From: Desulfosudis oleivorans | GTDB taxonomy: Bacteria; Desulfobacterota; Desulfobacteria; Desulfobacterales; SURF-7 | Reading direction: 5' to 3' | Assembly: GCA_020723305.1 (NCBI GenBank) | Contig: DYJC01000007.1 | Span: 124,001 to 188,000, forward strand | DNA length: 64,000 nt | In this document: positions 17,495 to 50,792 of the stretch, in pieces | Numbering within the stretch: position 1 is the first letter of the stretch | Layout of the letters: every line of letters starts with the position of its first letter | Translations under genes and position numbers: made by a program | The notes under the pieces: generated by a model | What the model was told of the DNA's origin: nothing | The model's database searches: none | Seen by the model: the letters and a program-made list of their open reading frames with translations, nothing else

Positions 17495-17616
17495 GAGCCA
17501 ATTTCAAAACGATTATAGAGCGTCACACCGGCCAAAGTCTGTGCTCAGAAAAGAGCTGAAAATACTGAATTTTAGTTTTCGCCGGAACCACAACAAGAGA
17601 CTTTTGAAATTGGCTC
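17495..17616. repeat. MITE-like palindromic element, copy 1
   Basis: 122 bp with terminal inverted repeats GAGCCAATTTCAAAA / TTTTGAAATTGGCTC. It is flanked by the 4-bp direct repeat AAAC (17491-17494 and 17617-17620). An inner inverted pair based on CCGGC(C/G)AAA and TTTCGCCGG (Cs and Gs partly changed in this copy) makes the whole unit fold on itself. Same orientation as copy 5. It carries no gene. Confidence 0.88.
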
Positions 17617-17649
17617 AAACGATCATTTTTATCAATAAAAGGGGGAACC

Positions 17650-19653
17650 ATGAAAGACCCGATCCTTGTTCCGATTCGAATCAATCAACTTGAAATTAAA
17701 AATCGAATTTACATGCCGGCCATGCATCTTGGTATGGCCGACAATTATTACATTACAAATCAACTTTTAGATTTTTATGCTGAGCGTGCAAGAGGCGGGG
17801 CGGGTATGATCACTGTCGGATATGCCACAATCGATGAGCTTTCCGGAAATCCACAGGTTATCGGTGCTCATCATGATGACTTTATCCCAGGTCTTTCCAA
17901 GCTTGCGGAAGCAATTAATCAGAATGGTGCCCGATCCGCAGTTCAGTTAAACCATTCCGGACGATACAATCACTCTTTTTTTCTGAACGGCAAACAGCCG
18001 GTTGCCCCATCTGCTATTGCTTCCCGGCTAACCCGGGAAACACCGAAAGCCTTGGATAAAGTAGAAATCAAGGAGATTATCAACCGATTTGCCGATGCTG
18101 CTCAGCGGGTTCAAAAAGCAGGCTTTGATGCTGTAGAGGTGCTGAGCGGAACAGGATACCTGATCAGTGAATTCCTCTCTCCCCTTACCAATCAGAGGGA
18201 AGATGAGTATGGAGGCCCCCTGGAAAACAGAATGCGGTTCGGCCTTGAAATCATGGCTGCCATCCGGAAAAAAGTCGGCCCGGATTTCCCGCTGATTGTC
18301 CGCATGAACGGCAATGATTTCATGCCGGGAGGCCAGGGCCGGCATGAATTGAAAAAATATGCGAAAGCACTTTCCGATTCGGGAAATGTCAATGCGCTCT
18401 GCATTAATGTGGGATGGCATGAAGCCCGGGTACCTCAAATTGTCACATCCGTTCCCCGCGGAGTTTTCGGATACCTGAGCCGCGGTATCAAGGAGCAGGT
18501 TACCATTCCCGTAATTGCAAGCCATCGAATCAATGACCCCCAAACCGCACGCGAAATGATCGGCAATGGAATGTGTGATATGGTTGCGATGGGAAGAAGT
18601 CTGATTGCCGATCCTTACCTGCCGGAAAAAATAAAATCCGGACGTGAAAATGAAATGATTCACTGCATTGCCTGTGCCCAGGGATGTTTTGATAATCTGT
18701 TTAAATTGAAATCTGTTGAATGTCTCTGCAATCCGCGGGCTGGGCATGAAAAAGAAACACAGATATCCAAAACCGACAAACCCAAAAAAGTAATGGTAAT
18801 CGGAGGAGGAGCTGCCGGAATGAGTGCTGCATTGGCAGCCGGTGAACGCGGTCATCAGGTTACATTATATGAAAAATCAGATCGCCTGGGCGGACAATTG
18901 TTTCTGGCAGCCGCCCCTCCTGGAAGAGATGAATTCGCAATACTGGCAAATGATCTTTCCAGGCAGGTGATGAAGAGCAGCATACAAACCGTCCTGAACG
19001 CAGAAGTGGATGAAACCCTTCTGGAAAAAGAAAGGCCGGATGAGGTCATACTGGCAACCGGTGCAGAACCTATCGTCCCACCGATACCGGGCCTGAATCT
19101 GCCGCATGTGGTGCAAGCCTGGGATGTGTTGCAGGATAAAATCTACACCGGTAAAAATGTGGTTGTGATCGGCGGGGGCGCGGTCGGCGTTGAAACCGCC
19201 ATGTTCCTTGCGGAAAAAGGCACCCTTTCCGGCGAGGATGTAAAATTTCTCCTGACCAATCACGCAGAAGATCCTGAAACCCTGTGCGATTTAGCGACAA
19301 GAGGCACGAAAAATATTATCCTGATTGAAATGATGGAAGCCATTGGAAAAGATATCGGCAAATCAACCAAATGGTGCATGTTCCAGGAAATGGAACGAAG
19401 TCGAATTGACCGACGGATCGGTACCAAAGCGCTTGAAATCACCAAAACCGGTGTAAAAGTCCAGTCCGGAGATAAAATTGAAGAAATACAAGCAGATACA
19501 GTTGTGATTGCCGCGGGCTCCAAACCGCTGAACGTACTTTCCGAGGTATTGAAGAAAAAAGGGATCTCTTTCCGGACAACTGGGGATGCAGACCATGTTG
19601 CCCAGGCCATTGATGCCATACACAACGGCTTTTCCGCTGGAAAGAGCATTTGA
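17650..19653 (+). CDS. NADH:flavin oxidoreductase / 2,4-dienoyl-CoA reductase-like FMN-FeS-FAD enzyme
   Basis: 667 aa. Residues 1-~340 form an Old-Yellow-Enzyme barrel (NRIYMPAMHLGMAD, QLNHSGRY, GYLISEFLSPLTNQREDEYGG, DMVAMGRSLIADPYLP). A 4Fe-4S site follows (CIACAQGC then CLCNPRAG). Residues ~378-667 form an FAD/NAD module with GGGAAGMSAALAA and GGGAVGVETAMFLAEKG nucleotide folds. This is the architecture of FadH and trimethylamine-dehydrogenase-like enzymes, which pass hydride from NAD(P)H through FAD, FeS and FMN to a conjugated double bond. The substrate cannot be read from sequence. A strong ribosome site (AAAGGGGG) precedes the ATG. A hairpin terminator follows 10 bp after the stop. Confidence 0.9.
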   Translation: MKDPILVPIRINQLEIKNRIYMPAMHLGMADNYYITNQLLDFYAERARGGAGMITVGYATIDELSGNPQVIGAHHDDFIPGLSKLAEAINQNGARSAVQLNHSGRYNHSFFLNGKQPVAPSAIASRLTRETPKALDKVEIKEIINRFADAAQRVQKAGFDAVEVLSGTGYLISEFLSPLTNQREDEYGGPLENRMRFGLEIMAAIRKKVGPDFPLIVRMNGNDFMPGGQGRHELKKYAKALSDSGNVNALCINVGWHEARVPQIVTSVPRGVFGYLSRGIKEQVTIPVIASHRINDPQTAREMIGNGMCDMVAMGRSLIADPYLPEKIKSGRENEMIHCIACAQGCFDNLFKLKSVECLCNPRAGHEKETQISKTDKPKKVMVIGGGAAGMSAALAAGERGHQVTLYEKSDRLGGQLFLAAAPPGRDEFAILANDLSRQVMKSSIQTVLNAEVDETLLEKERPDEVILATGAEPIVPPIPGLNLPHVVQAWDVLQDKIYTGKNVVVIGGGAVGVETAMFLAEKGTLSGEDVKFLLTNHAEDPETLCDLATRGTKNIILIEMMEAIGKDIGKSTKWCMFQEMERSRIDRRIGTKALEITKTGVKVQSGDKIEEIQADTVVIAAGSKPLNVLSEVLKKKGISFRTTGDADHVAQAIDAIHNGFSAGKSI

Positions 19654-19662
19654 CAAGACAGA

Positions 19663-19698
19663 AAAAAGCCATGTCTGACATCCGGACGTGGCTTTTTG
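19663..19698 (+). terminator. Rho-independent terminator after the flavin oxidoreductase gene
   Basis: Stem AAAAAGCCATGTC pairs with GACGTGGCTTTTT (one U-G wobble) around a 9-10-nt loop and is followed by GTTTT. The A-rich 5' arm also makes it usable in reverse. Confidence 0.75.
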
Positions 19699-19720
19699 TT
19701 TTACATGCAAAGTGGAGAAA

Positions 19721-21180: not shown

Positions 21181-21190
21181 TTGAGGGATC

Positions 21191-22009: not shown

Positions 22010-22016
22010 TAACAAA

Positions 22017-29455: not shown

Positions 29456-29871
29456 ATATCCATACCGAACATAAAATTATTGTCTAAGAAATTAACCGGT
29501 TATTAAGCTTTTCTTGGTATCAGATATCACTTTATTAAGCAAGACGGGATTCCTGACCGGAATTTAATTGTTTGCAAAACCATTGAATACAAAATATACG
29601 ATTGAGCCAATTTCAAAAGTTTGTTGTTGTCGTTCCGGCGAAAACAAGAATCCAGTATTTTCAACTCTTTTTTGGGCACTGGCTTTCGCCGATGTGAAGC
29701 TTTTTAATAGTTTTAAAATTGACTCGATTTTCTCATTTTTCATTCAAAATGGTTATATGGTTATATTGAATCCTGTTTTTCGTTTACGGAAAACAAATTG
29801 ACAATAACCCGGATATTACTTTAAAAAAAGATTTTTTACAAAAAGTAAGAATTTTTGGTACAAAGGGGAGT
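29456..29871. other. Intergenic region between pbp1A and hisI
   Basis: 416 bp divergent spacer. It holds MITE copy 2 (29604-29725) and otherwise AT-rich sequence. A TTGACA box at 29798-29803 with TTTAAA 16 bp on could start hisI transcription, but the -10 is weak. No coding signal is visible. Confidence 0.6.
29604..29725. repeat. MITE-like palindromic element, copy 2
   Basis: 122 bp, opposite orientation to copy 1. The left end is GAGCCAATTTCAAAA and the right end is mutated (TTTTAAAATTGACTC). It is flanked by the 4-bp direct repeat GATT (29600-29603 and 29726-29729). The inner pair CCGGCGAAA / TTTCGCCGA is nearly intact. Confidence 0.85.
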
Positions 29872-35033: not shown

Positions 35034-35035
35034 AA

Positions 35036-36639: not shown

Positions 36640-39495
36640 ATGAATTCAAATGGATTTAAAACCAGTAAAAGAATCGGGGAATACCTTGCTTGTGATCCAA
36701 AACAGATCCGGCAAGCCCTGAATGGCCAGAAAAAAATATCCGGCACGGATATTAAACCTCTTCTGGGTGAAATACTGGTTCAGGAAGGAACCATTACCCA
36801 GGATGCCCTGCAAAAGGCGATTCTTCAGCAGCGCCTGGACCGACTTCAGCAATGTGAAATTTTTTCAAACCTCAATAGCAATGACTTGATGGCTCTTCGC
36901 GAATGCGCCTGTGAAATTACCCTTGAGCCCCATCAGGAATTTATCACCCAGGATCAGCCTGGAGATTGCTTTTATGTCCTGATTGAAGGATTGGCCGAGG
37001 TGTTTCGAAAAGATGAGTATGGAGAAGAAGTTCTTCTGGGCAGGATTGAATCTTCGGATTGTATTGGTGAGATGGGTTATTTCAGCGATGGGAAAAGAAT
37101 TGCTTCCGTAAGAACCCTCCGGAAATCCTATCTTCTGAAAATCAAATACAATGATTTCAAAAAACTTTTACCGATTTCCCCGACACTTGCCCTGAATTTT
37201 CTGGAACTTGTCACCAACCGTTTAAGGCAGGCCAATTACCGGTACCAGCAATCCGTGATTAAAAAAAGAAAAGCGGAGATTTCTTTACAGTATATCTGTG
37301 AATTCATGGACATGAATGAAATTATCAGCCTTCGAATCAGCATGGAGCAACAGATCGAACGGATTATTACAACCGCCAGCAAGGTAATGAACGCTGAACG
37401 TGCAACCCTGTTTCTGGTGGATAAATTCTCCGGCGATTTATGGGCAATGTTTGCAGAAGGAGTGAAACAAAAAGAGATACGTGTTCCAATCGGCAAGGGG
37501 GTTGCCGGATGGGTGGCAAAAAATGAAAAGATTTTGAATATCTCAGATGCCTATTCAGACAGACGCTTTGACACATCCATTGATCAACAGATCGGTTTTC
37601 GAACCCGCAATATTCTTTGTGGGCCTTTAAAAAACTTACAGGGAGAGCTTCTGGGTGTCATTCAGGTTTTGAATAAAAAAGAGGGGAGCTTTCAAAAAAT
37701 TGATGAAACTTTATTCAAGGCATTCAGCTATCAGAGCGCCATTTCTGTTGAAAATCATAACTTGTATCGAAAATTACTGGAAGACCACGAAAAGATGGCG
37801 ATTCTTTTTGATATCTCCATGTCGATCGCACACACCCTGGATCTGGATACGCTTTTTGTAAAAATTGTCGATAAAATTTCAGAGATTCTGAACGCGGAAA
37901 GAAGCTCTCTTTTCCTCATCGATCCGAAAACCAATGAGCTGTGGTCCAAGGTTGCCCAGCAATCTGAATTAACGGAAATCCGGTTTCCAGCGGAAAAAGG
38001 TCTGGCCGGTTATGTCACCCAGACCGGTCAGATTCTAAACATTGAAAATGCCTATCAGGACCCGCGATTTCTTCCCATCGTGGATAATCAGACCGGTTTT
38101 TACACCAGAACAGTGCTTTGTGTTCCCGTCATAAACCGGAATGGGGAAATCATCGGTGTTGCAGAAGCCATGAACAGGAAAGAAGGCAAATTTGTTCAAG
38201 AGGATGAAACGCTGCTGAAGACAATTGTTTCTCAGGTATCGGTGGCTCTGGAAAACGCCCAGCTTTATGGGCGTACACTGGAAATGAAAAATTATCTTGC
38301 CAGTGTTCAAAACAGTATCACCAACAGTATCATCACCATCAACAATCAATGGAAGATTGTTACCGTCAATCAGCGTGCGGAATCGCTTTTCCATAGAACT
38401 CAGGATCAAATGATCCAGCAGGATATTCGTCAGATTATCCACTCCGGTAATGAAAGCCTTGTTGCAACAATCCATCGCGCCATAACCAACCATATGGCGG
38501 TTGTCGAATATGATGTGCCTCTCTTACTTCCAACCTGCGAAGAACAATATATCAATCTGAATTTTTTCCCTCTCCTGGACCACCGGAAGGAGCGTCAGGG
38601 AACCGTGCTGATCTTTGAAAATATCACCTCTGAAAAAAGGATGAAAAATACCCTGATACGGTATATGGCCAAGGACATTGTTGAAACCATCCTGGATGAT
38701 CCTGTCCAGCAGCGGCTGGGCGGCACGCGAAGCAAAGCAACCATTATGTTTTCAGATATCCGGGGATACACCGGTATTACCGAAAACCTGACCGCCGAAC
38801 AGACGGTCGCGTTTCTGAATGAATACTTCCGGCTGATGGTGGATGTGATTTTCGAAAACAAAGGCGTACTGGATAAGTTTATCGGGGATGGAATCATGTC
38901 GGTCTTTGGTGTCCCCTATACAAAAGAGGATGATACCATCCGTGCGGTGCGGACTGCTTTGCAGATGAGACAAAATCTGAATGCCTTCAATGCCGCCAAA
39001 AAAAAACACGGGGGAAAACCGATCCATATCGGTATTGGAATCTGTACCGGAGAGGTAATCTCCGGCAATATCGGATCTGAAAGGCGCATGGACTTCACCG
39101 TTATCGGTGATGGCGTGAATGTCGCATCCCGTATTGAAAACCTGACAAAATATTATGGTGCGGACATCCTGATCACCGGTTCCACCCATGAGGAGATCAA
39201 AGATCATTTTACCACCAGATTGATCGATAACGTCCGGGTAAAAGGGAAAACCAAACCCATCCGGATTTTTGAGGTGATCGGCGAGGGTCACATCCCATTA
39301 TCCATAGCCGAAAGCTATTTCTGTCAGGGAAGGGATTTGTATGATCAAAAAAAATTCAGTCAAGCCGCTGATTTGTTTCGAAAGGGAATTATTGACGACC
39401 CTCCCTGCCAGGTTTTTCTGGAAAGATGCAAACAATTCATTCAATCCCCTCCTCCTTCAAACTGGAATGGAATATGGGTGTTACATGGAAAATAA
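36640..39495 (+). CDS. Multi-sensor class III adenylate/guanylate cyclase
   Basis: 951 aa, soluble. Order of parts: residues ~35-65 resemble the helical N-terminal unit of type II secretion/pilus ATPases ([20 protein letters not shown]); ~75-195 cyclic-nucleotide-binding domain ([29 protein letters not shown]); ~225-370 and ~385-545 two GAF domains; ~550-665 PAS; ~695-880 cyclase catalytic domain with metal Asp706 ([10 protein letters not shown]) and Asp750 ([11 protein letters not shown]) and NVASRIE for the transition state; a short TPR-like tail. All catalytic residues are present. cAMP binding at the N terminus suggests feedback. Monocistronic. Confidence 0.92.
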
Positions 39496-39541
39496 TCGAG
39501 GTTGAATATCGAATATCGGTTTTTTTTATACAAAACAGAAT

Positions 39542-41212
39542 CTAAAATTGAGTGATGTGCTTCATCTCTTTCAGACGATGGCTGATCTCCAGATAACAGG
39601 AAAACGCCTTGCCGGCCTCTTCAAAAGGATCCCGGAAATAGGAGCGTATTTTTGTAAGCGGGAATCGGCCTTTTTTAACTGCATAATATAGTTTGTTGCC
39701 CAGCATATACCCGAGCTGGGTGCTGAACACCAACGGCAGAATCGAACGATTTCGATACTGGGGTTCAAATTTCCGGTAAAAATCCTCCGGATTCCCGGTC
39801 TGCCGCTGAAGTGCATAGTGTTGCAGAATGAATCTTGCCACCTGTGAAATCATCGAATCAGTCTTTTGATATTCATCCCGTTTCATCTGGCCCAGCAACC
39901 TTCTGAGAGAGTTTTCCGAATGGGCTTTACGCTTTTCATTGATAAACTTGCTTCCGAAAAATCCCAGACATTCGGTGATCACATTCCAGTAAAACCGGTC
40001 AAACAGGTTCAGGTCTGCAGTCAGACGGCCGCGGCAGACCGCATTCACAAAATGGCTAGCCTCCTCGGCGGCCATGTTCAGATTGGAATTGGGCAGATAA
40101 ATTAAATACGCCTCTTTTCCTTCCTGCTCATATTCCAGAAGAAACCCTTCCCCGCTTTTCATCTTCTCCTTGATCAACCGGATTTTCCCCTTGACCGCCG
40201 GCATATCATGAATCAAATCCATAAAATCAAGGTTATTGGCATAATACACATTCAATTGTTCCAAAACCTGGGGATACAGGTCCAGTTTCAGAATGGATGC
40301 AAGATCGGATGCGATATCCTGGACCGACAGCCCGCTCCCTTCAGGACCGTCTTCAGCCCACTCCCCGTGGACTGGATAATATGCGTCTTCGGAGTATTCC
40401 AGCCAATTCAGATAAGACTGAACTTTGTTGGCCGGCATGGTGTTCATGACACAAAAACTGTTTTCACTGATCCGGATGACATCGGATTCCTCGATTCCCT
40501 GTTCACACATTTTCCAGAAAAGGTTTTCCGCATTCTGATAAACAATGACACTCCGGATCTGAATATCCAGGAGAACCAGCAGTTGTTCCACCTCTTTCGG
40601 AAGATGGCTTGGAGAAACATGAAAATCACCATCCACCACATAAATCAGCTTTCCCGGATTTTTCAGTAATGTTTTTGAAATCACTTTTGCCGCATACCGG
40701 TCCCGGTCTCTTATTCCACCGATTCCTTCACCGGGATCGGAATTGATCCCAATGATCGGAATCCCATGATCCTGACAAAAACAAATAATCGGGCTCCAGT
40801 TCTGCCAACTAAAAGGCCATTTTTTCCGATAATCGATTTTCCGGATAAAAACTCCCTCGGAAAGATCACCATCCATAAAGGCATCGATATATTTCTGGTC
40901 CATGCCGTAGAACATCTCCAGACAGAGAATCATCTCCCGTTTTCCCTGGATTTCCCGAAGAATACGCAAGACACACCTCTGCGACTGTCGCAGCGTATGG
41001 TAATCCCCATGAAATACCAGGTCTGCTCCGGAAACCTTTTTAATCAAATCTGTTTTGGTTGAAATGCCCTGATAATCCTTTAAAAAATCAAAATATTCCT
41101 TTTCATAGGTTTCGACCGCAGGATTATACTCCAGGCTGTCACGAACCAGCTTGACATTTTTCCAATAGTTCTTTTTTTGAATTTGAATGAGCTCTTTCCG
41201 CAATATGGACAT
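39542..41212 (-). CDS. ChaN-domain protein, heme-binding lipoprotein-like N terminus
   Basis: 556 aa. Residues ~60-260 match the ChaN/DUF399 family (LVFHGDYHTLRQSQR, MILCLEMFYGMDQKYIDAFMDG, GIPIIGINSDPGEGIG, YVVDGDFHVSPSHLP). Members are linked to iron or heme handling in other bacteria. There is no signal peptide or lipobox, so this one appears cytoplasmic. The C-terminal ~300 residues are helical and unassigned, with YLNWLEYSEDAYYP and AEEASHFVNAVCRGR. The family is usually ~250-300 aa, so the C-terminal extension is unusual. Function unknown. Confidence 0.78.
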   Translation of the reverse strand: MSILRKELIQIQKKNYWKNVKLVRDSLEYNPAVETYEKEYFDFLKDYQGISTKTDLIKKVSGADLVFHGDYHTLRQSQRCVLRILREIQGKREMILCLEMFYGMDQKYIDAFMDGDLSEGVFIRKIDYRKKWPFSWQNWSPIICFCQDHGIPIIGINSDPGEGIGGIRDRDRYAAKVISKTLLKNPGKLIYVVDGDFHVSPSHLPKEVEQLLVLLDIQIRSVIVYQNAENLFWKMCEQGIEESDVIRISENSFCVMNTMPANKVQSYLNWLEYSEDAYYPVHGEWAEDGPEGSGLSVQDIASDLASILKLDLYPQVLEQLNVYYANNLDFMDLIHDMPAVKGKIRLIKEKMKSGEGFLLEYEQEGKEAYLIYLPNSNLNMAAEEASHFVNAVCRGRLTADLNLFDRFYWNVITECLGFFGSKFINEKRKAHSENSLRRLLGQMKRDEYQKTDSMISQVARFILQHYALQRQTGNPEDFYRKFEPQYRNRSILPLVFSTQLGYMLGNKLYYAVKKGRFPLTKIRSYFRDPFEEAGKAFSCYLEISHRLKEMKHITQF

Positions 41213-41641
41213 CAGAGGGGGGGTGTCCTTTTATCCGATGGATGCAAATCAAACAACCACACGATTTCATCAAACAAATGAGCCAATTTCAAAAGTCTCT
41301 TGTTGTAGTTCCGGCGAAAACTAAAATCCAGTATTTTCGGCTCTTTTCTGAGCACTGACTTTCGCCGGTGTGACGCTTTATAATCGTTTTGAAATTGGCT
41401 CAAATGATATAAAAATTTTCTCTAAGCGATACGGATATGTTACTATCCAGACAAATATTTTTCAACCTGAAAAAAATTCCGGAAACAGCTCTTTCAATCC
41501 GGATATTTTTTTGATACAATACACTGTAATTGAATGGTTCTGATATCACTCTTCAATTGCATTGCAGCCACTTACATTAAACATTTTTCTGAACCAATCC
41601 AGAACAGACAGTCCCGGAATTTCAATACAGGAGGTTTCTCT
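41213..41641. other. Intergenic region between ChaN-domain gene and cheX
   Basis: 429 bp. Contains MITE copy 3 (41280-41401), then AT-rich leader. An open stretch in frame with cheX from 41534 is probably untranslated, because the AGGAGG site points to the GTG at 41642. Confidence 0.55.
41280..41401. repeat. MITE-like palindromic element, copy 3
   Basis: 122 bp with intact ends GAGCCAATTTCAAAA / TTTTGAAATTGGCTC. Flanked by AAAT on both sides (41276-41279 and 41402-41405). Inner pair CCGGCGAAA / TTTCGCCGG perfect. Best-preserved copy. Confidence 0.9.
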
Positions 41642-42280
41642 GTGGATGCCAATATGATTAACACATTTCTCAAGGCAACGCTGGAAATCATTCATGATGT
41701 GGCCCACCTCAGTTATAAAGTCCATAAAATATACAAAAAAAAAGATGAAAAAGGCATAGGTGATGTTACAGGAATCATTGGTTTGAAGGGCTCCGGTAAA
41801 GGTACAGTCGCAGTCACCTTTGATCAGAGTACGATTTTATATATTGTCTCAAAAATATTGGACATGGACACCAAGGATATTGGTGAAGATATCGTGATCG
41901 ATACGGTTGCTGAACTGGCTAATATGATCACCGGACGGGCGATACGCATTCTGGCGGAAAAAGGATTTGATCTTGATTTAACACTCCCGACAGTTGTCCA
42001 TGGCCCTGATCACAAAGTTGTTCATCAAGCCAGCGGCCCTATAATCGTGATCCCCTATTCATCTGAGCAGGGAAATTTTACAGTTGAATTCTCATTTAAC
42101 CCGGATATGAAACCAGAGTTACCCCAACCAGACACAAAAAAAACGGATACCAAATCCAGTAATGGTGACATGGATCATCTTTCAAAAACCGTAACCCCTC
42201 CTTCCATTAACAAGCCTTCCGAATCCAAGGATTCCGTAAATAAGGCCTCTAACAGCTGGGGAATGCCGGAAACCGGATAA
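41642..42280 (+). CDS. cheX: CheX-family chemotaxis phosphatase
   Basis: 212 aa from GTG 41642, with AGGAGG 7 nt before it. Residues ~1-155 are a CheC/CheX-type domain: DVTGIIGLKGSGKGTVAVTFDQ, then AELANMITGRAI with the catalytic Glu-x2-Asn pair, and GPIIVIPYSSEQGNFTVEFSF. CheX dephosphorylates CheY-like receivers. The last ~55 residues are a Pro/Ser/Lys-rich disordered tail (PELPQPDTKKTDTKSS) not typical of CheX. No other che genes are nearby, so its partner receiver is elsewhere. Confidence 0.87.
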   Translation: MDANMINTFLKATLEIIHDVAHLSYKVHKIYKKKDEKGIGDVTGIIGLKGSGKGTVAVTFDQSTILYIVSKILDMDTKDIGEDIVIDTVAELANMITGRAIRILAEKGFDLDLTLPTVVHGPDHKVVHQASGPIIVIPYSSEQGNFTVEFSFNPDMKPELPQPDTKKTDTKSSNGDMDHLSKTVTPPSINKPSESKDSVNKASNSWGMPETG

Positions 42281-42357
42281 CTGTCCTGACAACCTCCATA
42301 TTGTGTTTTCACATATTGATGTTTTTATTTATTTCAGGAAGCAACACCGGAGCTAAC

Positions 42358-43269
42358 ATGAAATATAGATTGAAAAATACCGCCACACTGTTTGAAACCA
42401 TAATGGTCATCTATAAAGGGATTTCAAAACAAAAGGCCAAGCAGATAATCAAATATTCAGAGTTCCTGATGAATGGGAAAAATATTGGTCGGCATCCAAA
42501 ACTGGTTATCGAAACAGGCAGTGAGCTTGTAATTATTCCAATGGAAAAAAGCCGAAATGAAACCCAGGCTCCTACAGAAAGAAACCCTGTGGCCATCCAT
42601 TTCGAGGATTCTCATCTGATTATTGCCCGTAAACCAGCCGGAATTTTATCGTGCGGGAACAAGGAACTAGTAATCAATAATTCATACCATAAACTTCTGG
42701 AAGCGTTTCTCACGGAACGCGATGGAAAAAAAACCAGACTCTGGGTTATTCATCGGCTCGACAGGGAAGTAGAAGGATTGCTGATGTTTGCAAAGTCTGA
42801 AAAACTTCAGAAGCAGATAAAAGATAAATGGAAAGAGGTCAATAAAAAATATATCGCTCTTACCGAGAACAGACCTGATCCCCCGGAGGGGATCATTGAA
42901 AACTGGCTGAAGGATACTTCTGCCCGGAAGGTTATTGCCTGTCCAAAGGAAACCCCTGGCAGCAGGTATGCAAAAACGGAATATGCTTTTATCAGAAATG
43001 AAAGGCCTTACCATCTGGTTGAAATCAAATTACATACCGGGAGGAAAAACCAGATCCGTGTACATCTGGCAGGAATTCACTGCCCTGTTGTCGGCGACCG
43101 GAAATATGGTGCGGATTCAACCTTTATCCGGCAAATCCGTCTGGCAGCCTTTTTTCTCGAATTTCAACATCCTGTGACAAAAAATATAATATCGGTTCAG
43201 TACACACCCTCTCAACGTTTTTTCAAACCTTCAACAACTTCTGATGAGAATTACAAGATAACCGGTTAA
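42358..43269 (+). CDS. RluA-family pseudouridine synthase
   Basis: 303 aa from ATG 42358 with CGGAG upstream; an ATG at 42301 opens a hydrophobic leader that is probably not translated. An N-terminal S4-like RNA-binding unit (~10-60: GISKQKAKQIIKYSEFLMNGK) precedes the catalytic domain with IARKPAGILSCG, the active-site Asp in HRLDREVEGLLMFAKS, LHTGRKNQIRVHLA and VVGDRKYG. Isomerises uridine in rRNA or tRNA. Which site cannot be told. Confidence 0.92.
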   Translation: MKYRLKNTATLFETIMVIYKGISKQKAKQIIKYSEFLMNGKNIGRHPKLVIETGSELVIIPMEKSRNETQAPTERNPVAIHFEDSHLIIARKPAGILSCGNKELVINNSYHKLLEAFLTERDGKKTRLWVIHRLDREVEGLLMFAKSEKLQKQIKDKWKEVNKKYIALTENRPDPPEGIIENWLKDTSARKVIACPKETPGSRYAKTEYAFIRNERPYHLVEIKLHTGRKNQIRVHLAGIHCPVVGDRKYGADSTFIRQIRLAAFFLEFQHPVTKNIISVQYTPSQRFFKPSTTSDENYKITG

Positions 43270-43271
43270 AT

Positions 43272-43574
43272 TCACATCCCCTCAATCAGTCTGGAATACT
43301 CCTTGAGAGTGCGAATGGATTCCATTGTCATCTGGAAAAAAAACCAGGAAAGAACAAGTATACCGACGGTAAGCCCGATCTTCCATGCCTGGGTTGTTTG
43401 CGGCCGCCACCAGATCAGGGGTAACGCCAGCGGCCCCACACAACAGACAGCAATGATAATAAAAGATTTTCGGAAATACCATTGGATTTTTTCCTCAAGA
43501 AACTCATTGCAGTGTTTACACTTTATCGCTTCATCTTGAATTTCTTCAGCACAGAAAGGACACTTTTTCATCAT
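43272..43574 (-). CDS. Small zinc-ribbon membrane protein
   Basis: 100 aa. N-terminal double-zinc-ribbon style [18 protein letters not shown] (two Cys-x2-Cys pairs), then two hydrophobic segments ([33 protein letters not shown]). Common small membrane protein type of unknown role. Tandem ATG start (43574 or 43571). Its stop lies 2 bp from the convergent RluA stop. Confidence 0.78.
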
Positions 43575-43630
43575 AACCTCTCCTGGTTAGTGGATTATGC
43601 TTACCTTTGATAAACAAAAGATCATATGGA

Positions 43631-44326
43631 TTACTCATTGTTCTGTTTCAGGAATGTAAGAATGTTATCCATCATCCGGTTTATTGTCTGGTAATTCTCA
43701 GGCTTTACTGAAAAAATTTCTTCCTCGGTTTGTACATATTGAGAGGGTATTAATTCATCGCGGCAGTGAAAAACCATTTTCCCTGCTGACTCTGGTGTGG
43801 TTTCAAGATGAAACTGCAATCCAATAGCCGACCTGCCGATTTGAAACGCCTGGTTTTCACATCCTTTGCTTCCAGCCAGACGGATTGCTCCGGCCGGCAG
43901 ATCAAAAGTCTCACCATGCCAGTGGAAAACTTCCATGGATGCCGGAAAGCTGAAAATTGAACGATCCGTCAGTGATACCCCATTTATTGGATACCACCCG
44001 ATCTCCTTTACGGGATTCCGATATACCTTTGCTCCCATTGCGCTTGCAATGAGTTGTGCACCCAGACAGATGCCCAGAACCGGTTTTCCAGAACCGATCA
44101 TGTCGCAAATGAACTGCTTCTCCCGTGCAAGCCAGGGGAACATATCCTCATCATTGACACTCATAGGCCCGCCCATCACAACAAGCAGATCAATTGTGTT
44201 GGTATCCGGCAGGTCATCGGACTCAAAAAACTTTGTGCTTGTTATCCGATACCCGGCCTTTTCAAGCCATGATTCGATGCTGCCAAGACCTTCGAATGGG
44301 ACATGCTGGAAATAATGTGCGTGCAT
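43631..44326 (-). CDS. Class I glutamine amidotransferase-like protein
   Basis: 231 aa, stand-alone GATase-1 domain: VVMGGPMSVNDE, catalytic Cys in LGICLGAQLIASAMGAKVY, FHWHGETFDLP, and the His/Glu part in GLQFHLETTPES. Related to GMP-synthase-like amidotransferases acting without a fused synthase; some act as gamma-glutamyl hydrolases. AAGGAG precedes the ATG. MITE copy 4 lies just upstream, between it and the DUF6125-like gene. Confidence 0.9.
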   Translation of the reverse strand: MHAHYFQHVPFEGLGSIESWLEKAGYRITSTKFFESDDLPDTNTIDLLVVMGGPMSVNDEDMFPWLAREKQFICDMIGSGKPVLGICLGAQLIASAMGAKVYRNPVKEIGWYPINGVSLTDRSIFSFPASMEVFHWHGETFDLPAGAIRLAGSKGCENQAFQIGRSAIGLQFHLETTPESAGKMVFHCRDELIPSQYVQTEEEIFSVKPENYQTINRMMDNILTFLKQNNE

Positions 44327-44379
44327 TTGTTCTCCTTTTCATTACTACTATTTGCAATAACCAGAAATATAAATCCCTT

Positions 44380-44500
44380 GAGCTAATTTCAAAAGTCTGT
44401 TGTTGTAGTTCCGGCGAAAACAAGAATCCCTATTTTCGGCTCTTTTCTGGGCACCGACTTTCGCCGGTGTGACGCTTTTTAATAGTTTTGAAATTAGCTC
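44380..44500. repeat. MITE-like palindromic element, copy 4
   Basis: 121 bp. Both ends carry the compensating change GAGCTAATTTCAAAA / TTTTGAAATTAGCTC, so pairing is kept. Flanked by CCTT (44376-44379 and 44501-44504). It begins 7 bp after the stop of the minus-strand gene at 44508. Confidence 0.88.
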
Positions 44501-44507
44501 CCTTTTG

Positions 44508-45284
44508 TTAAAAATCAAGCTCAGCAGAAGCCATGGTAACCACGGGGATAGTAAACCGCCAGGCGCAATACCACTCTTCCGGATGTTTATCCGGCGGACA
44601 TCCCACACATTCTGTTTGAATCCGGCTGTCGATTGTACGGGCAAACGTGGTGTATTCAACCATACCGCCGGATTTGCAGGGATAATCATCCAGATTCTTC
44701 CGTTTCCTCGCGGATTGCACGCGGCATTCATTCATCTGAAAAAGAAGACTGTTTGCACTTTCTTCCACAATGGATTGGATATTGATGCAGGCATACAGTC
44801 TGAAATTCAATGCTTTTTTTAACCCCTCCAGCCCTGGATTTTCCGGAAGACCCAGTAATCCTTTAATTGCCGTAGCTTCAAAAGGTGAAAAATACTGCCA
44901 GCATGCATCATTACATGCCTTGGCCTCTTTCATGCTGCTTGAAAATTCGACCGCCTGAAACCAGACGCCATCGTTTGCCAGCCAGTTGATGGCTGTACTT
45001 TTCATTATATCATTCATTTGGTCTTCATTCATTTCCAGCAAAGATGCGGGAATGCCATCCTGTGGATTTCCACCAAAAGCGGTTACAAACCGTTTCAGTT
45101 GAATGGAAAAACTCTTTCGGGTCGCCTCGTTCAGAATGATCATGGCTTTTTCAACTCCCATCCGATTTCGAACCTCTGAAAACCACAAGGCATAGTGAAC
45201 CATAATCCGCTGAAACATATCCAGAAGATGCTCTGTTTTTTGTGGCTGTTGCAAATCATCCATAGTATCGGGAACTTTGTTCAT
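44508..45284 (-). CDS. Cysteine-containing cytosolic protein, DUF6125-like
   Basis: 258 aa from ATG 45284 (a TTG one codon upstream sits nearer the GGAG site). Helical, soluble: MFQRIMVHYALWFSEVRNRMGVEKAMIIL-type start, then KACNDACWQYFSPFEATAIK, LYACINIQSIVEES, MNECRVQSARKRKNLDDYPCKSGGMVEY and TECVGCPPDKHPEEWYCAWRF. About eight conserved-looking cysteines suggest metal binding. It resembles DUF6125 proteins common in sulfate reducers and clostridia; this is from memory of the pattern. Function unknown. Two AACC-N4-GGTT palindromes lie 98-122 bp upstream. Confidence 0.65.
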   Translation of the reverse strand: MNKVPDTMDDLQQPQKTEHLLDMFQRIMVHYALWFSEVRNRMGVEKAMIILNEATRKSFSIQLKRFVTAFGGNPQDGIPASLLEMNEDQMNDIMKSTAINWLANDGVWFQAVEFSSSMKEAKACNDACWQYFSPFEATAIKGLLGLPENPGLEGLKKALNFRLYACINIQSIVEESANSLLFQMNECRVQSARKRKNLDDYPCKSGGMVEYTTFARTIDSRIQTECVGCPPDKHPEEWYCAWRFTIPVVTMASAELDF

Positions 45285-45381
45285 CAATTATATCTCCATT
45301 GTTACCCTGTTTAATCTGTAACCGATTCGCCCCCAAAAGGCTCCGGTCTTTGAAGAGAATTCAGATCGGATGGAAATTTTT

Positions 45382-45406
45382 AACCATATGGTTAAACCTT
45401 GTGGTT
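45382..45406. promoter_or_regulatory. Two tandem AACC-N4-GGTT palindromes (candidate operator)
   Basis: AACCATATGGTT at 45382-45393 (inside the perfect 14-mer TAACCATATGGTTA) and AACCTTGTGGTT at 45395-45406. The centres are 13 bp apart; a further AACCAT half-site follows at about 45430. They lie in the 248-bp divergent spacer between the DUF6125-like and the kynurenine-formamidase-like genes, so either or both could be controlled. Confidence 0.5.
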
Positions 45407-45532
45407 GAATTTTTTACTATCAAAAAATTAACCATGTCAAGGAGATTTCTCTTTTAAAAATATGCCATGTGACATAATCTGTGCTGCATCGATACTGTAT
45501 AAAAGGACTAATTTAGAGAGAAGCCGCAATCC

Positions 45533-46174
45533 ATGAAGACAATAGATTTAAGCCATACAATCTCCATTGAAACACCGGTTTATCCCGGAACAGAACCCCC
45601 CGTTTTTTCAACTCCCTGTACAATTGAAAATCAGGGTTTTTTGGAGAAAAGGATTACCCTGTTTTCCCATACCGGTACACATATGGATGCACCCTCCCAT
45701 ATTCTTTCGGATGGAAAATCTCTTGACCGGTTTCCAGCAGAAAAATTCATGGGCAAAGCAGCTGTAATCAACCTCACCCATATTGACCGGTTGGAAATAA
45801 CATACCGTGATCTTATCCAATATGAATCACTTATCATGAAAATCGATTTTCTTCTGCTCTATACCGGATGGTACCTGAAATGGGGGAAAGATGACTATTT
45901 CAAGGAATATCCTGTTCTGACAGCAGAGGCTGCCAGGTGGCTGGCTGGGTTTCCGTTAAAGGGAATCGGCGTGGATATGATTTCCGTTGACCGGACAGAC
46001 ACGGACACCTATCCGATACATCGGATTTTATTACAAAATGAAATCCTCCTTGTTGAAAATCTGACAGCTCTTTCGGAACTCCCGGACATGATTTTTTCTT
46101 TTTGCTGCTTTCCGCTCAAAATTAAGGATGCGGATGGATCCCCGGTACGGGCAACGGCCCTGACATCAGAATAA
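45533..46174 (+). CDS. Cyclase/kynurenine-formamidase family metal hydrolase
   Basis: 213 aa, full family length. Metal-binding motif HTGTHMDAPSHI near residue 46, preceded by DLSHTISIETPVYPG, and followed by LLLYTGWYLKWG and GIGVDMISVDRTDTD...HRILLQNEILLVENL. Family members open or form amide and lactone rings (kynurenine formamidase, isatin hydrolase). No kyn genes are nearby, so the substrate is unknown. No strong ribosome site. Confidence 0.88.
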   Translation: MKTIDLSHTISIETPVYPGTEPPVFSTPCTIENQGFLEKRITLFSHTGTHMDAPSHILSDGKSLDRFPAEKFMGKAAVINLTHIDRLEITYRDLIQYESLIMKIDFLLLYTGWYLKWGKDDYFKEYPVLTAEAARWLAGFPLKGIGVDMISVDRTDTDTYPIHRILLQNEILLVENLTALSELPDMIFSFCCFPLKIKDADGSPVRATALTSE

Positions 46175-46226
46175 TTGTTCCTTTTTCATATCACCTTAAA
46201 TCTCATCCAGATTGTTCGGAAAATAA

Positions 46227-47798
46227 TTACACCACCTGTTTTTCGAAAAAAACACAATTACGACCCTGTTTTTTGGCCTGATACAGGGCATTATCCGCTT
46301 CCTTGATAAGCTCTTCCGGTAATAACTCCTGAACCGGAATTCTGCTGGCGACTCCCAGACTCAATGTAACATAACTGTCCGCCTTGGAATATTCATGGGG
46401 GATTTTGAGTTCGGCTATGATTTTCCGGACCTTTTCTGCAACATGGATTGCGCCGGATAGTTCCGTATCCGGCAGAATCAGGGCAAACTCTTCTCCTCCG
46501 TAGCGTGCAGCCAAATCGGAAGATCGTTTTGCCACCAGATGGATGGCCCGGGCAACAGTCTGAAGGCAGCCATCCCCTTCCTGATGCCCATAGTTATCAT
46601 TGTAAAACTTGAAAAAATCGATATCACATAATATCAATGATATTGGTTTCCGGTCCCGCTTCATCCGGTTCCACTCATTGGCAAGGTGCTCATCAAACCG
46701 CCTTCGATTGGGTATCTGCGTCAATCCATCCATGATAGCAAGGCGATGCAGTTCCTTGTTGGCTTCCTGCAAAGCATCTTCCGCACGTTTCCTTTCACTG
46801 TCATCAAAAATAGATCCATCCAGCCACAATGGCTGGCCAAGCTCACTGAAAATAGCCTGACCCTTTTCAATAAACCAGCGAATACGGTTGCCGGCATCGA
46901 TAATACGATATTCAACATGGATGGACTTCATGGGGTCCAGCCCTTCCTGAATCGCTTTGTCCACTTTTTCAAGGTCATCCGGATGAATGATACTGCGGTA
47001 GGATCGTACCCGGTTCCGGATGAAAAAGGATGGAGGAAATCCCGTAATCTCCTCAATCATTTCAGAAATATATTCCAGAGTCCATTCACTATCGATTCGA
47101 AAACGATATACGGCCCCGGGAAGGTTTGCCACAAGAGAGCGGAACTGCTCTTCACTTTCATGAAGGGCCTCGGACATCATTTGCCGCTCTTCCAACTGAA
47201 CATTCAACTGATCGATCGTTTCCTGAAGTTCCCTTGTCTGTGCAGCTACCTGTTCCTTCAGTCCCTCATGTATAACCTTCAATTTTTCTTCTGCTTTTTT
47301 CCGTTCCGTTATCTCCATTTCCAGTTTTGCTACTGCTTCTTTTAGCTTTTCCGTTCTCTGTTTTACTTTTTCCTCCAGATTTTCATTGGCGTCCCTCAAT
47401 GCCAATTCAACCTTTTTTCTTTCCAGAGAATAGCAGATGGATCTTTTTAGAAGATCACTATCAATCCTGCCCTTTAAAAAACAATCCTGTGCCCCCTCCC
47501 TCAACACCGGATTAGCCAGTTCCTGATTTTCCATTCCAGTCAAAACAATAACCGGCAGCTCCGGAGCCTGATCCCGCAAGATCAAATATGTATCGATGTT
47601 TTTACTGTCCGGCAGATTGAGATCCAGAAAAACAATATGAAAATCCATATTTTTAATATTGTTTAAACCGCTGGATAAGGAATTTGCCACATGAACATCA
47701 TAGATCGGACAGCCTTCTTTAGAGAGCAATTTTTGTATCAACATCGCATCCGATGGATTATCTTCAATCAACAATAATTTTATCGGTATTGTTTCCAT
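46227..47798 (-). CDS. Response regulator with PAS and GGDEF (diguanylate cyclase)
   Basis: 523 aa. Residues 5-125 receiver domain (LLIEDNPSDAMLIQ, phospho-Asp in VFLDLNLPDS, VLTG, K near FLKGRID). A long coiled coil ~135-220 (LEEKVKQRTEKLKEAVAKLE) precedes a PAS domain ~222-345 and a GGDEF domain ~355-520 with RYGGEEFALILPDTE, the active signature, and LILCDIDFFKFYND. It makes c-di-GMP in response to a phosphorelay and a PAS signal. The I-site RxxD is not evident. No kinase is adjacent. Confidence 0.93.
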   Translation of the reverse strand: METIPIKLLLIEDNPSDAMLIQKLLSKEGCPIYDVHVANSLSSGLNNIKNMDFHIVFLDLNLPDSKNIDTYLILRDQAPELPVIVLTGMENQELANPVLREGAQDCFLKGRIDSDLLKRSICYSLERKKVELALRDANENLEEKVKQRTEKLKEAVAKLEMEITERKKAEEKLKVIHEGLKEQVAAQTRELQETIDQLNVQLEERQMMSEALHESEEQFRSLVANLPGAVYRFRIDSEWTLEYISEMIEEITGFPPSFFIRNRVRSYRSIIHPDDLEKVDKAIQEGLDPMKSIHVEYRIIDAGNRIRWFIEKGQAIFSELGQPLWLDGSIFDDSERKRAEDALQEANKELHRLAIMDGLTQIPNRRRFDEHLANEWNRMKRDRKPISLILCDIDFFKFYNDNYGHQEGDGCLQTVARAIHLVAKRSSDLAARYGGEEFALILPDTELSGAIHVAEKVRKIIAELKIPHEYSKADSYVTLSLGVASRIPVQELLPEELIKEADNALYQAKKQGRNCVFFEKQVV

Positions 47799-48014
47799 AA
47801 TAATATAAAAATATTACAAACTAACAGGAGATCCAAATTCCATTTGTGGAGTCATATTCCAACTTTTTCAGATTTGGATTTTAAACGATTTGAAGGAAAA
47901 AACTGAATGATGTTTTAAGATACTACGTTATCCGGTATTATGCAATCTTTTTAGAATGTAATAATTTCGCCCTCCATTAAATCTGCTTTGCAAATTTCCA
48001 GTACATCCTTAGCT

Positions 48015-48206
48015 TTAATCATTGCCTATGATACTCGTCTTACTCTCTTCTAATAATGAATAATTAAGATTCTCGTAAAACCTTAAATCCAACCGCATTA
48101 ATTCAAGAAATTCCTTCATTTCCTTTTTGATGGATGAATATATGAGATCGGCAGAAAATTGATTCTTTTTGATATTCAAGTAAATATTTGATATGGGTTT
48201 TGCCAA
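48015..48206 (-). CDS. Hypothetical small protein or gene remnant
   Basis: 63 aa from a TTG; the open frame continues upstream for about 14 more codons without a better start. Reads AKPISNIYLNIKKNQFSADL and MKEFLELMRLDLRFYENLN, amphipathic and protein-like. The stop overlaps the ATG of a 23-codon frame with a DRTGG-like start. Not recognised; it may be a decayed domain. Confidence 0.3.
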   Translation of the reverse strand: MAKPISNIYLNIKKNQFSADLIYSSIKKEMKEFLELMRLDLRFYENLNYSLLEESKTSIIGND

Positions 48207-48475
48207 ACCTACGACAACCCAATTTAAATTTCGATAAGAAGACTTTCGACTTTATCCAACAACCCGGGACCCTGATAGATCCCATGGATTATTATTTGAA
48301 AATCGTCACAGATAAGCGGGAAAGTTGCTTATATCAAAATGAGGCGGGCGAGTGTATTGAAAATGATTATATATTCACTCTGTGTCCAAAAAAGAACCGG
48401 TACAGCTTCTTGAAACGCTATATTAGAACTGCTCTCCATATGGCCGTTGCTCATAAAAGGAAGAGAGGTGATTAA
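48188..48475 (+). CDS. Hypothetical protein, possibly truncated
   Basis: 95 aa. Contains spaced cysteines (ESCLYQNEAGECIENDYIFTLC-type spacing) and a basic C terminus ending AHKRKRGD. No family is recognised and no ribosome site is visible. The last codons overlap the ribosome site of the PNPOx gene. Confidence 0.3.
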   Translation: MIWVLPNLRQPNLNFDKKTFDFIQQPGTLIDPMDYYLKIVTDKRESCLYQNEAGECIENDYIFTLCPKKNRYSFLKRYIRTALHMAVAHKRKRGD

Positions 48476-48482
48476 ATTGTCC

Positions 48483-48932
48483 ATGGATAGAACTACGAAA
48501 ATCCGCAATAAAATAGAAGAACTTTTCATCAGCCGGAAACTGGCAGTACTGGCGACGAGCGATGCCGGGCAGCCCTATACCAGCCTGGTTGCCTTCTGGG
48601 GAACAAAGGACTTGAAGTATCTTTATTTCGTAACCTCCAAAACCACCCGTAAATTTGCCAACCTTTCAAACGATAACCGGGTATCCATGCTCATCAACAA
48701 TACCATCAACGCAGATAATGATTTTCATGATGCAATATCGGTTACCGCTATCGGAGGATCAGAGGAGATTACCGGCTCTCTGAAAGAAAAAATATTACGC
48801 CATTACTTAAACAGGCTCCCCTTTTTGGAAGAATTTGCCCGGTCTCCTACCTGCGCCCTGATCCAAGTAACCGTAGTCTCCTACTATATGGTCGAAAAAT
48901 TTCAAAGTGTTATGGAACTTCATATAAAATAA
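48483..48932 (+). CDS. Pyridoxamine 5'-phosphate oxidase-fold flavoprotein
   Basis: 149 aa from ATG 48483; a TTG at 48477 is better spaced from the GAGAGGTGA site and may be the real start. PNPOx-like split barrel: LAVLATSDAGQPYTSLVAFW, YLYFVTSKTTRKFANLSNDNRVSMLI, AISVTAIGGSEEI and a C-terminal LIQVTVVSYYMVEKFQ. Members bind FMN or F420. The role is unknown. A decayed paralogue type lies 0.6 kb downstream. Confidence 0.85.
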   Translation: MDRTTKIRNKIEELFISRKLAVLATSDAGQPYTSLVAFWGTKDLKYLYFVTSKTTRKFANLSNDNRVSMLINNTINADNDFHDAISVTAIGGSEEITGSLKEKILRHYLNRLPFLEEFARSPTCALIQVTVVSYYMVEKFQSVMELHIK

Positions 48933-49025
48933 TGAAACAGATATTGCTTCTCCAAAATGTCACCTTCCATCACCAAAGCCTCATGGTGTGTTTGATTGAG
49001 TCCGTACATGGATTGAACCAGTGGA

Positions 49026-49418
49026 GTGGACATAGGGATACGACTATTCGGTCAGTTCTATAACGATACGGTTCATCCGGATGATCCCTATGAATTTATG
49101 AACCTGCTCACCGGCAGCAAACTGGCCAGTCTGGAGCGCAACCGCCTGATGATGGAAATAGCGGAAATGGTCAGAAACGATCCGGATGTAAAAGGCCAGG
49201 TCCGGCTGGGGGAGGTGAAATTTACTCACCAGGAATTTCAGGCCAAACTGGATTCATTTGTTGAACAGTATGGTGACCTGTCCTGTGCGGTTACAGGGGG
49301 GACTCAATGTGCCACGGATGTTACTCCTTTATTGGCCCTGATTCGGACCGGCGATCAGATTACCGTTGACGGATTTTTGGGTATTGTCACGATTTCCCGA
49401 CCTGAAGCCCTAAAATAA
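49026..49418 (+). pseudogene. Remnant of a PEP-synthase/PPDK-like gene
   Basis: 131 codons open from a GTG. YEFMNLLTGSKLASLERNRL, MAEMV-type helices and FQAKLDSFVEQYGDLS resemble the linker of phosphoenolpyruvate-synthase-like enzymes. TGDQITVDGFLGIVTI is the end of their phosphohistidine (mobile) domain. The ATP-binding domain, phosphohistidine loop and catalytic barrel are missing. An internal in-frame deletion joining linker to the domain end is the simplest reading. Confidence 0.55.
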
Positions 49419-49554
49419 AAATCATTTACAAATCGGTTTTTATCCATATCTTTTGCTAACGGCTTCATGGAAAATAAGATTCGAGTGATTTCAAAATGAA
49501 CCGACCATACCGCTGACCTGAAAATCAAACCGGCAGCAAAAAGGAGGATTGCGA

Positions 49555-49768
49555 ATGAATTTACAAGAATGCTTTGAAAATACAAGAGGGATAAGGATAC
49601 CGGGGCAAGCGGCTGTTCCTGACGAAAATCAAAGAGGAAACCGACCCGGATCTGATCCAATCCTTGTGCCGCCGTTGTTACCCCAATGAACTTCAGGTCC
49701 AGGAACCGCGTTTTCTCGTGGTGTTCAAGGTTGACAAAGAGTTGCCTTTGATTGGCCCTGGTAAGTGA
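49555..49768 (+). pseudogene. Decayed PNPOx-family gene (internal deletion and frame change)
   Basis: AAGGAGG then ATG 49555 reads MNLQECFENTRGI. The middle (~60-70 residues) is missing, and a different frame continues GKRLFLTKIKEETDPDLIQS, EPRFLVVFKVDKELPLIG to a stop at 49768. Both ends match the ~140-aa pyridoxamine-phosphate-oxidase-like proteins of sulfate reducers, so this is one gene after deletion. The intact ribosome site suggests recent decay. Confidence 0.7.
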
Positions 49769-49801
49769 AACCGGAATAATCCATATTGCAGGAGGTGTTG
49801 A

Positions 49802-49867
49802 ATGTCTTACGATTTTACGGCCAATGAAATTTTTGAGGTGGCTATTCGAATAGAAGAAGGTGGATAA
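49802..49867 (+). pseudogene. N-terminal stub of a rubrerythrin/ferritin-like gene
   Basis: A strong AGGAGGTG site precedes ATG 49802. The 21 residues MSYDFTANEIFEVAIRIEEG match the start of rubrerythrin-type ferritin-like proteins (a first helix with the pattern EIFE-A--IE), then a stop. The di-iron helices are absent. Confidence 0.55.
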
Positions 49868-49979
49868 AGTTAATCGCATGGTGCAATGAAAAACACTTAA
49901 ATTGAATCGAGTACTTACTTCAGCGTTAATAACGCTCTCCATGGGTCAAGGTGCTTGTAAACAGAGAAAAAACAGATTA

Positions 49980-50663
49980 ATGAAAATTGTACTGACAAAT
50001 GATGATGGGTTTAATGAACCTGGCCTGATTGAGCTGGCAAAACAAGTGAAACGCATGGGAGAGATCATGATCGTTGCACCTAAAAAACCTCAATCCATTG
50101 CCGGACACCGGGTTACACTCAAAGACCCGATACCGGTTGAGCAGGTTTCGGAAAATGAATACATCGTAGATGGTTCCCCCGCGGATTGTACACGCCTGGC
50201 TTTGAAAAAATTTATGCCGGATGCACATTGGGTGATCGCAGGTATCAATCCAGGTGCCAATCTGGGTACAGACGTTTACCAGTCCGGTACAGTTGCCGCA
50301 GCGCGTGAGGCTGCCATCCTTGGTTGCAAAGCGATCGCTGTATCCCAGTACATCGCACCAAACCAGAAAATTGATTGGGAAATCACCGGGCAGTATGCTT
50401 CGCGAATTCTTTCCATCATAATGGGGAAAAAACTGGATTCCGGAAATTTCTGGAATATCAATCTCCCCCATCCGATTCATGACCTATCCATCCTCGAATA
50501 TAACGAGTGTGATCTGGATAAAAAACCACACATGTTTGATTTTAAAATTGAAAATGGTCAGTATCGATATTCAGGAATTTTTCATAACCGGCCCCGCACC
50601 CAAGGGCGGGATATTGATATCTGTCTGTCCGGAAAAATCGCAGTGTCTAAAATAGAAATTTAA
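49980..50663 (+). CDS. surE: 5'/3'-nucleotidase SurE
   Basis: 227 aa from ATG 49980 (MKIVLTNDDGFNEPGL, the usual start; a longer frame opens at 49902). Metal-site NDD, then VAPKKPQSIAGHRVTL, VDGSPADCTRLAL, GINPGANLGTDVYQSGTVAAAREAAILG and NINLPH. Dephosphorylates nucleoside monophosphates and acts in stationary-phase survival. Standing alone, without the usual pcm or nlpD neighbours. MITE copy 5 begins 7 bp after its stop. Confidence 0.95.
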   Translation: MKIVLTNDDGFNEPGLIELAKQVKRMGEIMIVAPKKPQSIAGHRVTLKDPIPVEQVSENEYIVDGSPADCTRLALKKFMPDAHWVIAGINPGANLGTDVYQSGTVAAAREAAILGCKAIAVSQYIAPNQKIDWEITGQYASRILSIIMGKKLDSGNFWNINLPHPIHDLSILEYNECDLDKKPHMFDFKIENGQYRYSGIFHNRPRTQGRDIDICLSGKIAVSKIEI

Positions 50664-50670
50664 TCTGAAT

Positions 50671-50792
50671 GAGCCAATTTCAAAACTATTAAAAAGCGTC
50701 ACACCGGCGAAGGTCAGTGCCCCAAAAAGAGCCGAAAATACTGGATTATAGTTTTCGCCGGAACTACAACAATAGACTTTTGAAATTGGCTC
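50671..50792. repeat. MITE-like palindromic element, copy 5
   Basis: 122 bp, same orientation as copy 1, intact ends GAGCCAATTTCAAAA / TTTTGAAATTGGCTC. Flanked by the 5-bp direct repeat TGAAT (50666-50670 and 50793-50797). The inner pair CCGGCGAA / TTCGCCGG is kept. Confidence 0.9.

Follow-up and report, generated by a model that had tools for sequence, protein, structure and literature searches.

A multicopy family of miniature inverted-repeat transposable elements in Desulfosudis oleivorans, with inverted pairs of repetitive extragenic palindromes in part of its longer copies

In the part of PMC10969869 considered here, the miniature inverted-repeat transposable elements (MITEs) of bacteria are depicted as short sequences bounded by terminal inverted repeats (TIRs), flanked by direct repeats, present in multiple copies and mostly lying between genes. 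Among the repetitive extragenic palindromes (REPs), those of the CGTC-tagged kind are recognised, in the sections of PMC3733652 drawn upon, by a CGTC tag (often TGTC), a stem of 8-9 bp, a loop of 4-5 bp and a tail that is mostly CCA; no transposase of their own was known to the same sections, where it was left open whether the REP-associated tyrosine transposases (RAYTs) or other transposases move them (Di Nocera et al., 2013). The present analysis bears on a stretch of 64,000 bp of the genome of Desulfosudis oleivorans, hereafter the window (contig DYJC01000007.1, positions 124,001 to 188,000), and on a family of 121-122 bp repeats scattered along it, which shares with bacterial MITEs all the traits listed above. 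This family is a family of MITEs: it is short, bounded by TIRs, flanked by target site duplications (TSDs) in excess of chance and polymorphic for insertion between sister species. As far as shown, its mechanism is ordinary, and the added interest lies in the REP core of part of its longer copies and in modular relatives built on the same ends.

Copies, target site duplications and empty sites

The first-pass annotation of the window had described five copies of 121-122 bp, in both orientations, with TIRs of 15 bp and with the flanking repeats AAAC, GATT, AAAT, CCTT and TGAAT; the copies, their ends and all five repeats were recovered as follows (genomes, contigs and loci other than the window are designated by G, C and L numbers, respectively).

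Copy 1: 17495-17616, + strand; 122 bp; 15-bp TIRs exact; TSD AAAC at 17491-17494 and 17617-17620
Copy 2: 29604-29725, - strand; 122 bp; 2 mismatches in one TIR; TSD GATT at 29600-29603 and 29726-29729
Copy 3: 41280-41401, - strand; 122 bp; TIRs exact; TSD AAAT at 41276-41279 and 41402-41405; site empty in sister species G002 and G003
Copy 4: 44380-44500, - strand; 121 bp; 1 mismatch in each TIR; TSD CCTT at 44376-44379 and 44501-44504
Copy 5: 50671-50792, + strand; 122 bp; TIRs exact; TSD TGAAT (5 bp) at 50666-50670 and 50793-50797; site empty in G003
Empty site: 45397-45403, no strand; a 143-bp copy stands at the matching site in sister species G002

The 15-bp TIR, which copies 1, 3 and 5 carry without mismatch at either end, reads GAGCCAATTTCAAAA. 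Copies 1 and 5 share one orientation, copies 2, 3 and 4 have the opposite one, and a full-length alignment was obtained among all five. Taken alone and with up to 3 mismatches, the TIR is mildly enriched in the window, i.e., 16 sites versus a shuffle mean of 7.1 (16 was reached in 1 of 100 shuffles), and the ends of the five copies account for 10 of these 16 sites. As to coding, mechanically called open reading frames (ORFs) overlap some of the copies and no gene was seen there by inspection.

Over the whole source assembly (5.40 Mb in 47 contigs, the window being part of contig C28), GAGCCAATTTYAAAA yielded 260 matches, 124 forward and 136 reverse, and its reversed control none. A first set of 65 copies, delimited by end pairs with up to 3 mismatches each and up to 4 together and having 60 bases of flanking sequence at either side, carried a TSD in 55 cases (49 of 4 bp and 6 of 5 bp), where shuffling gave means of 1.4 and 0.2, respectively. 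A profile built from these 65 copies was then used to scan a sample of 864 kb made up of C41:1-400000, C45:1-400000 and the window, C41 and C45 having been picked for their length and not for their copies, though both were already known to carry some. The scan returned 52 places, namely 48 full-length and 4 partial copies, which extrapolates to about 325 places genome-wide. TSDs flank 39 of the 48 full-length copies, the five of the window included, against 1.14 + 0.13 (about 1.3) by shuffling. When the distinct copies of the genome are united (n = 92; 100-166 bp long), TSDs are found in 73, i.e., in 50 of 58 copies of 120-123 bp, 18 of 25 of 141-143 bp and 5 of 9 others. The 67 TSDs of four bases in this union comprise 49 different sequences, with a raw composition of 71% A+T. 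Most sampled copies stand between genes: in 40 of 48 the overlap with greedily called ORFs stays below 20%, versus in 8.1% of random 125-bp stretches, and in 4 of 48 it exceeds 80%. As a side observation, the flanks of two copies on C1 of the same genome (L043 and L044) share a CCGGAATGGTGA-like sequence, possibly the same kind of target repeat.

Empty sites were sought by comparing window positions 38500-51400, which cover copies 3, 4 and 5, with three genomes of the genus, and were clean in sister species for copies 3 and 5, i.e., two of the three window copies compared. For copy 3, the joined flanks align at 87% over 117 bases in G002 and at 78% over 93 bases in G003, continuously across the junction, and the aligned sister sites hold a single AAAT; for copy 5, the junction aligns at 91% over 34 bases in G003, where the target itself has diverged. 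The reverse case is met at 45397-45403, where G002 carries a 143-bp copy with a duplication read by eye as CTTTT/CTTGT (one mismatch) and D. oleivorans carries none. Two checks proposed along with the first-pass annotation thus have their answer, with flanking repeats far above chance over many genomic copies and, within 38500-51400, empty sites in both directions between sister species; its proposal of a non-autonomous transposable family is supported by both. Since the TSDs lie outside the TIRs, the unit moved as a whole.

Length classes and the core of the element

Three length classes dominate the 48 sampled copies: 34 measure 120-122 bp, 10 measure 141-143 bp (one of which becomes 144 bp once its end is adjusted) and 4 measure 165-166 bp. 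The consensus of the 141-143 bp copies runs from a TIR through a CGTC-tagged hairpin, a spacer and a second, inverted hairpin with a TGTC tag to the other TIR. Under a strict but generic REP test, where 7-8 of 8 stem pairs were demanded and the stem sequence was left free, at least one CGTC-tagged REP is present in 11 of 26 copies of 141-144 bp, on both arms in 6 of these, and in none of the shuffled copies; among copies of 120-123 bp the test is passed by 4 of 58 and among those of 165-166 bp by 0 of 6. Within the 864-kb sample, REPs with a perfect stem (8/8) lie inside the element in 16 of 17 cases, and the lone one outside has a loop of 5 bases. Two core patterns, ATTCC and CACC, fall inside the element in 54 of 54 matches with up to 2 mismatches, a count that favours the element because both patterns were drawn from it; a shorter 14-mer core pattern was found 34 times inside and 14 times outside, one of the outside matches, 77 bases from a copy, being REP-like by eye. 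A GCACGCAGTGAAGC-like module is also present in long copies of the genome.

Mean identity within a class amounts to 85% for long copies (n = 9) and 90% for short ones (n = 34). Because the long class has both the intact REPs and the lower mean identity, the direction is taken to be from 143 to 122 bp; deletion within the 142-143 bp form, with its core of two inverted CGTC-tagged REPs, thus probably gave rise to the 122-bp form. By plain counts, the larger share of long copies that lack a TSD would fit an older long form.

The presence of REPs calls for considering whether the element is itself a REP-like repeat, akin to bacterial interspersed mosaic elements (BIMEs), moved by a tyrosine (Y1) REP-associated transposase. 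Seven Y1 matches in the genome, one of them in the window at 35036-36004, and the fit of CGTC-tagged REPs to the cores of some long copies speak for such an origin. Y1 transposition is not known to generate TSDs. Yet TSDs are the rule here, which largely refutes a Y1 mover; besides, a CGTC-like core pattern occurs at 0 of the 7 Y1 loci, one of which (L081) has a copy of the element inside it, and an intact REP is absent from 54 of 58 short copies, 50 of 58 of which still show TSDs. From these last two counts, the TIRs rather than the REPs seem needed for movement, and a Y1-driven spread appears most improbable. The first-pass annotation had placed the mobilising transposase outside the window, which seems right, with the addition that the window does hold this one Y1 gene, at odds with the TSDs. 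The gene itself (35036-36004, + strand) matched the model of REP-associated tyrosine transposases below its cut-off (57 of 80 bits). Two direct repeats of about 70 bp (34806-34874 and 34965-35034), 92-94% alike and spaced 159-160 bp apart, stand immediately before it and may be related to its substrate.

Conversely, the REPs could be the mobile partner, with CGTC-tagged pairs repeatedly inserting into a pre-existing palindrome of which the TIR element would be only the target. REP dimers do lie inside palindromes that the consulted part of PMC3733652 speaks of as target palindromes, and the same TIR exists elsewhere with mostly other cores; the TSDs outside the TIRs, however, indicate movement of the unit as a whole, and the five window copies can be aligned end to end. 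Repeated invasion is accordingly judged unlikely, and the REPs may have entered the TIR element once, early on, before the composite unit spread.

Predicted folding raises another prospect, namely that the repeat is not mobile but is a functional RNA or an attenuator maintained by selection. As DNA, the full-length copy L041 folds with a z-score of -8.6 and window copies 1 to 5 with z-scores of -3.6, -0.7, -5.7, -3.9 and -4.9, strong values for four of the five, and the copies sit between genes as such a role would have it. On the other side, copy 2 (z -0.66) folds no better than shuffled sequences, neither the window nor nine related loci matched any Rfam family at gathering scores, and presence or absence varies between sister species. 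Conservation as an RNA element therefore carries very little credence, and transposition of a MITE is retained as the explanation of the family.

The same ends in other genomes and the search for a transposase

A first search found matches to the element in 8 of 59 genomes, that of D. oleivorans included, some of them over short stretches only, and the exact TIR occurs 204 times, 97 times and once in three other genomes of the genus. Across the order, the exact TIR was found in 65 of 389 genomes, in a table that gives the first places of each genome among those listed. Several of the single matches look like chance, lying inside ORFs, and a control sequence gave seven matches; for both reasons, the figure relied upon is that of two or more matches, i.e., 30 of 389 genomes by hand count of the table. 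Outside the genus, 78 elements were delimited by requiring a second end at a distance of 65-235 bp; 49 of them have a TSD (46 of 4 bp and 3 of 5 bp; shuffle mean 1.6, maximum 6) and 38 are exactly 142 bp long. By a loose motif test, 62 of the 78 hold a different core, called type B; CGTC REP-like cores are present in 4, all from G014, and a GCACGCAGTGAAGC-like module in 10, across both core types. CGTC-tagged REPs near a GAGCCAATTTCAAAA-type TIR are also encountered in G055, G170 and G001. The TIR is thus common to elements with several, mostly other, cores across the order. In D. oleivorans itself, a 142-bp element bounded by TIRs of this kind (L281, positions 9097-9238; C41:269097-269238) has a type-B core by eye and no perfect TSD.

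Several candidates for a transposase-bearing parent were examined and rejected. An insertion sequence (IS) of the IS1634 family was discarded, because the sole DDE_Tnp_1 match of the genome, an IS1634-family transposase of 559 aa at L083 (C28:51308-54763), lies in a 3.5-kb locus where no MITE end could be detected with up to 4 mismatches. DUF772-type IS, which we take to be IS1182/IS5, gave 0 matches in the own genome, and 28 loci from 15 genomes, a few of them cut by contig ends, were devoid of paired ends with equal flanks. IS701 likewise gave 0 matches in the own genome, and none of the 30 loci examined in 20 genomes proved to be an element bounded by these ends. The one promising locus, L310 of G107, joins IS701 to a DruA-like domain and shares 23 bp with a type-B MITE end; its own IS701-typical ends (TACTACAGCGA, at 892 and 3175) sit inside the GAGCC end at 3266, which is for this reason considered a neighbour, and the locus was dismissed as partner. 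By its Pfam name, the DruA-like domain within 892-3175 belongs to the Druantia defence family. A TIR pair spanning 1916 bp at L041 was set aside as well: one end belongs to a 142-bp copy and the other stands apart, and the two ORFs between them look ordinary by eye. No transposase was recognised, on reading the ORFs by eye, at those exact-TIR loci retrieved from other genomes that have no second end nearby. Matches to the TIR extended by CG in six viral contigs resemble, by eye, chance or coding matches, and four other viral scans returned 0, 0, 0 and one IS701 relative.

A hint at an autonomous IS, and the best lead towards it, comes from contig ends in three other genomes (loci L149-L151, L175, L198, L200, L196 and L355, from G026, G151 and G127). 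Three contigs of G026 stop 87 bases inside a TIR and one stops 86 bases inside; two of G151 stop at 138-140 bases and two of G127 at 137-140. These ends are identical within a genome, except for the fourth of G026, which is a different sequence. With contig names beginning in k87 for G026 and k141 for G151, this suggests that the contigs broke off one assembly k-mer into a repeat beginning at the TIR, and the ends of all three genomes are likely collapsed multicopy elements. A scan of genome contigs with the contig-end pattern brought back three stretches, only from the two assemblies that had supplied it. Plasmid searches yielded nothing for the element or the G026 ends and one weak match of 28-29 bases for each of the G151 and G127 ends. 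If both G026 sequences are ends of one element, this element would exceed about 170 bp, since no overlap is apparent by eye, and one of these ends could, on a faint indication, encode a C-terminus.

Proposed account and comparison with known systems

Taken as a whole, the following account is regarded as highly probable. A DDE-type transposase supplied in trans would recognise the 15-bp TIRs and insert the element, mostly between genes, through cuts staggered by 4, and at times 5, bp. The form of 142-143 bp would be the older one, with a core made of an inverted pair of CGTC-tagged REP hairpins, tags outward, the REPs presumably travelling as passengers of the TIR element; loss of about 21 bp from this core would then have given the 122-bp form, with REP hairpins mostly decayed, now the commonest. 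Several points weigh against this account: (i) the search of the DDE_Tnp_1, DUF772 and DDE_5/IS701 families, in the own genome and elsewhere, turned up no transposase bounded by these ends; (ii) the strict REP test is failed by 15 of 26 copies of 141-144 bp; (iii) the order from 143 to 122 bp is read from two observations, REP intactness and the difference in identity; (iv) a perfect TSD is lacking in 9 of 48 sampled copies and, in the union, in 8 of 58 short and 7 of 25 long ones; and (v) the empty-site evidence in the window is limited to copies 3-5, copies 1 and 2 lying outside the comparison, and copy 4 shows no clean empty site, standing at the edge of a larger stretch missing in both sisters.

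With respect to CGTC-tagged REPs, the hairpins of the long copies agree with the description in the part of PMC3733652 considered here, namely a CGTC/TGTC tag, an 8-bp stem, a 4-bp loop, a CCA tail and an arrangement in pairs. Unlike the REPs presented there, they are housed in a TIR element that makes TSDs and are hardly found outside it (16 of 17 inside, in the sample). The nearest precedent found is that of the CGTC-1 dimers of Halothiobacillus neapolitanus, which lie in 41-bp palindromes and so form a REP pair framed by inverted arms (PMC3733652); the arms differ in sequence from those of the present element, and section 7 of that source mentions no target duplications for the palindromes. 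The literature searched held no published mention of the TIR sequence, in several spellings. That nearly all intact CGTC-tagged REPs of the sampled part lie inside a TIR element with TSDs offers a concrete and testable route for REP spread. A general rule, whereby CGTC-tagged REPs spread by riding as passengers inside TIR elements that DDE transposases mobilise, is rather doubtful; if true, the dispersal of this REP superfamily would be explained by MITE transposition and not by a lost REP transposase.

As regards MITEs, variation in size and sequence is also described for the Chunjie MITE of Geobacter uraniireducens in the part of PMC10969869 consulted, a likeness by description only. The present family departs from MITEs with a parent IS, none having been found here among the transposase families examined, and from bacterial MITEs in general, as that part of PMC10969869 portrays them, by the inverted CGTC-tagged REP core of its long copies and by the association of one TIR with several cores within one order. 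One TIR, several cores and many genera of a single order make this family a good system for finding the transposase that serves modular MITEs.

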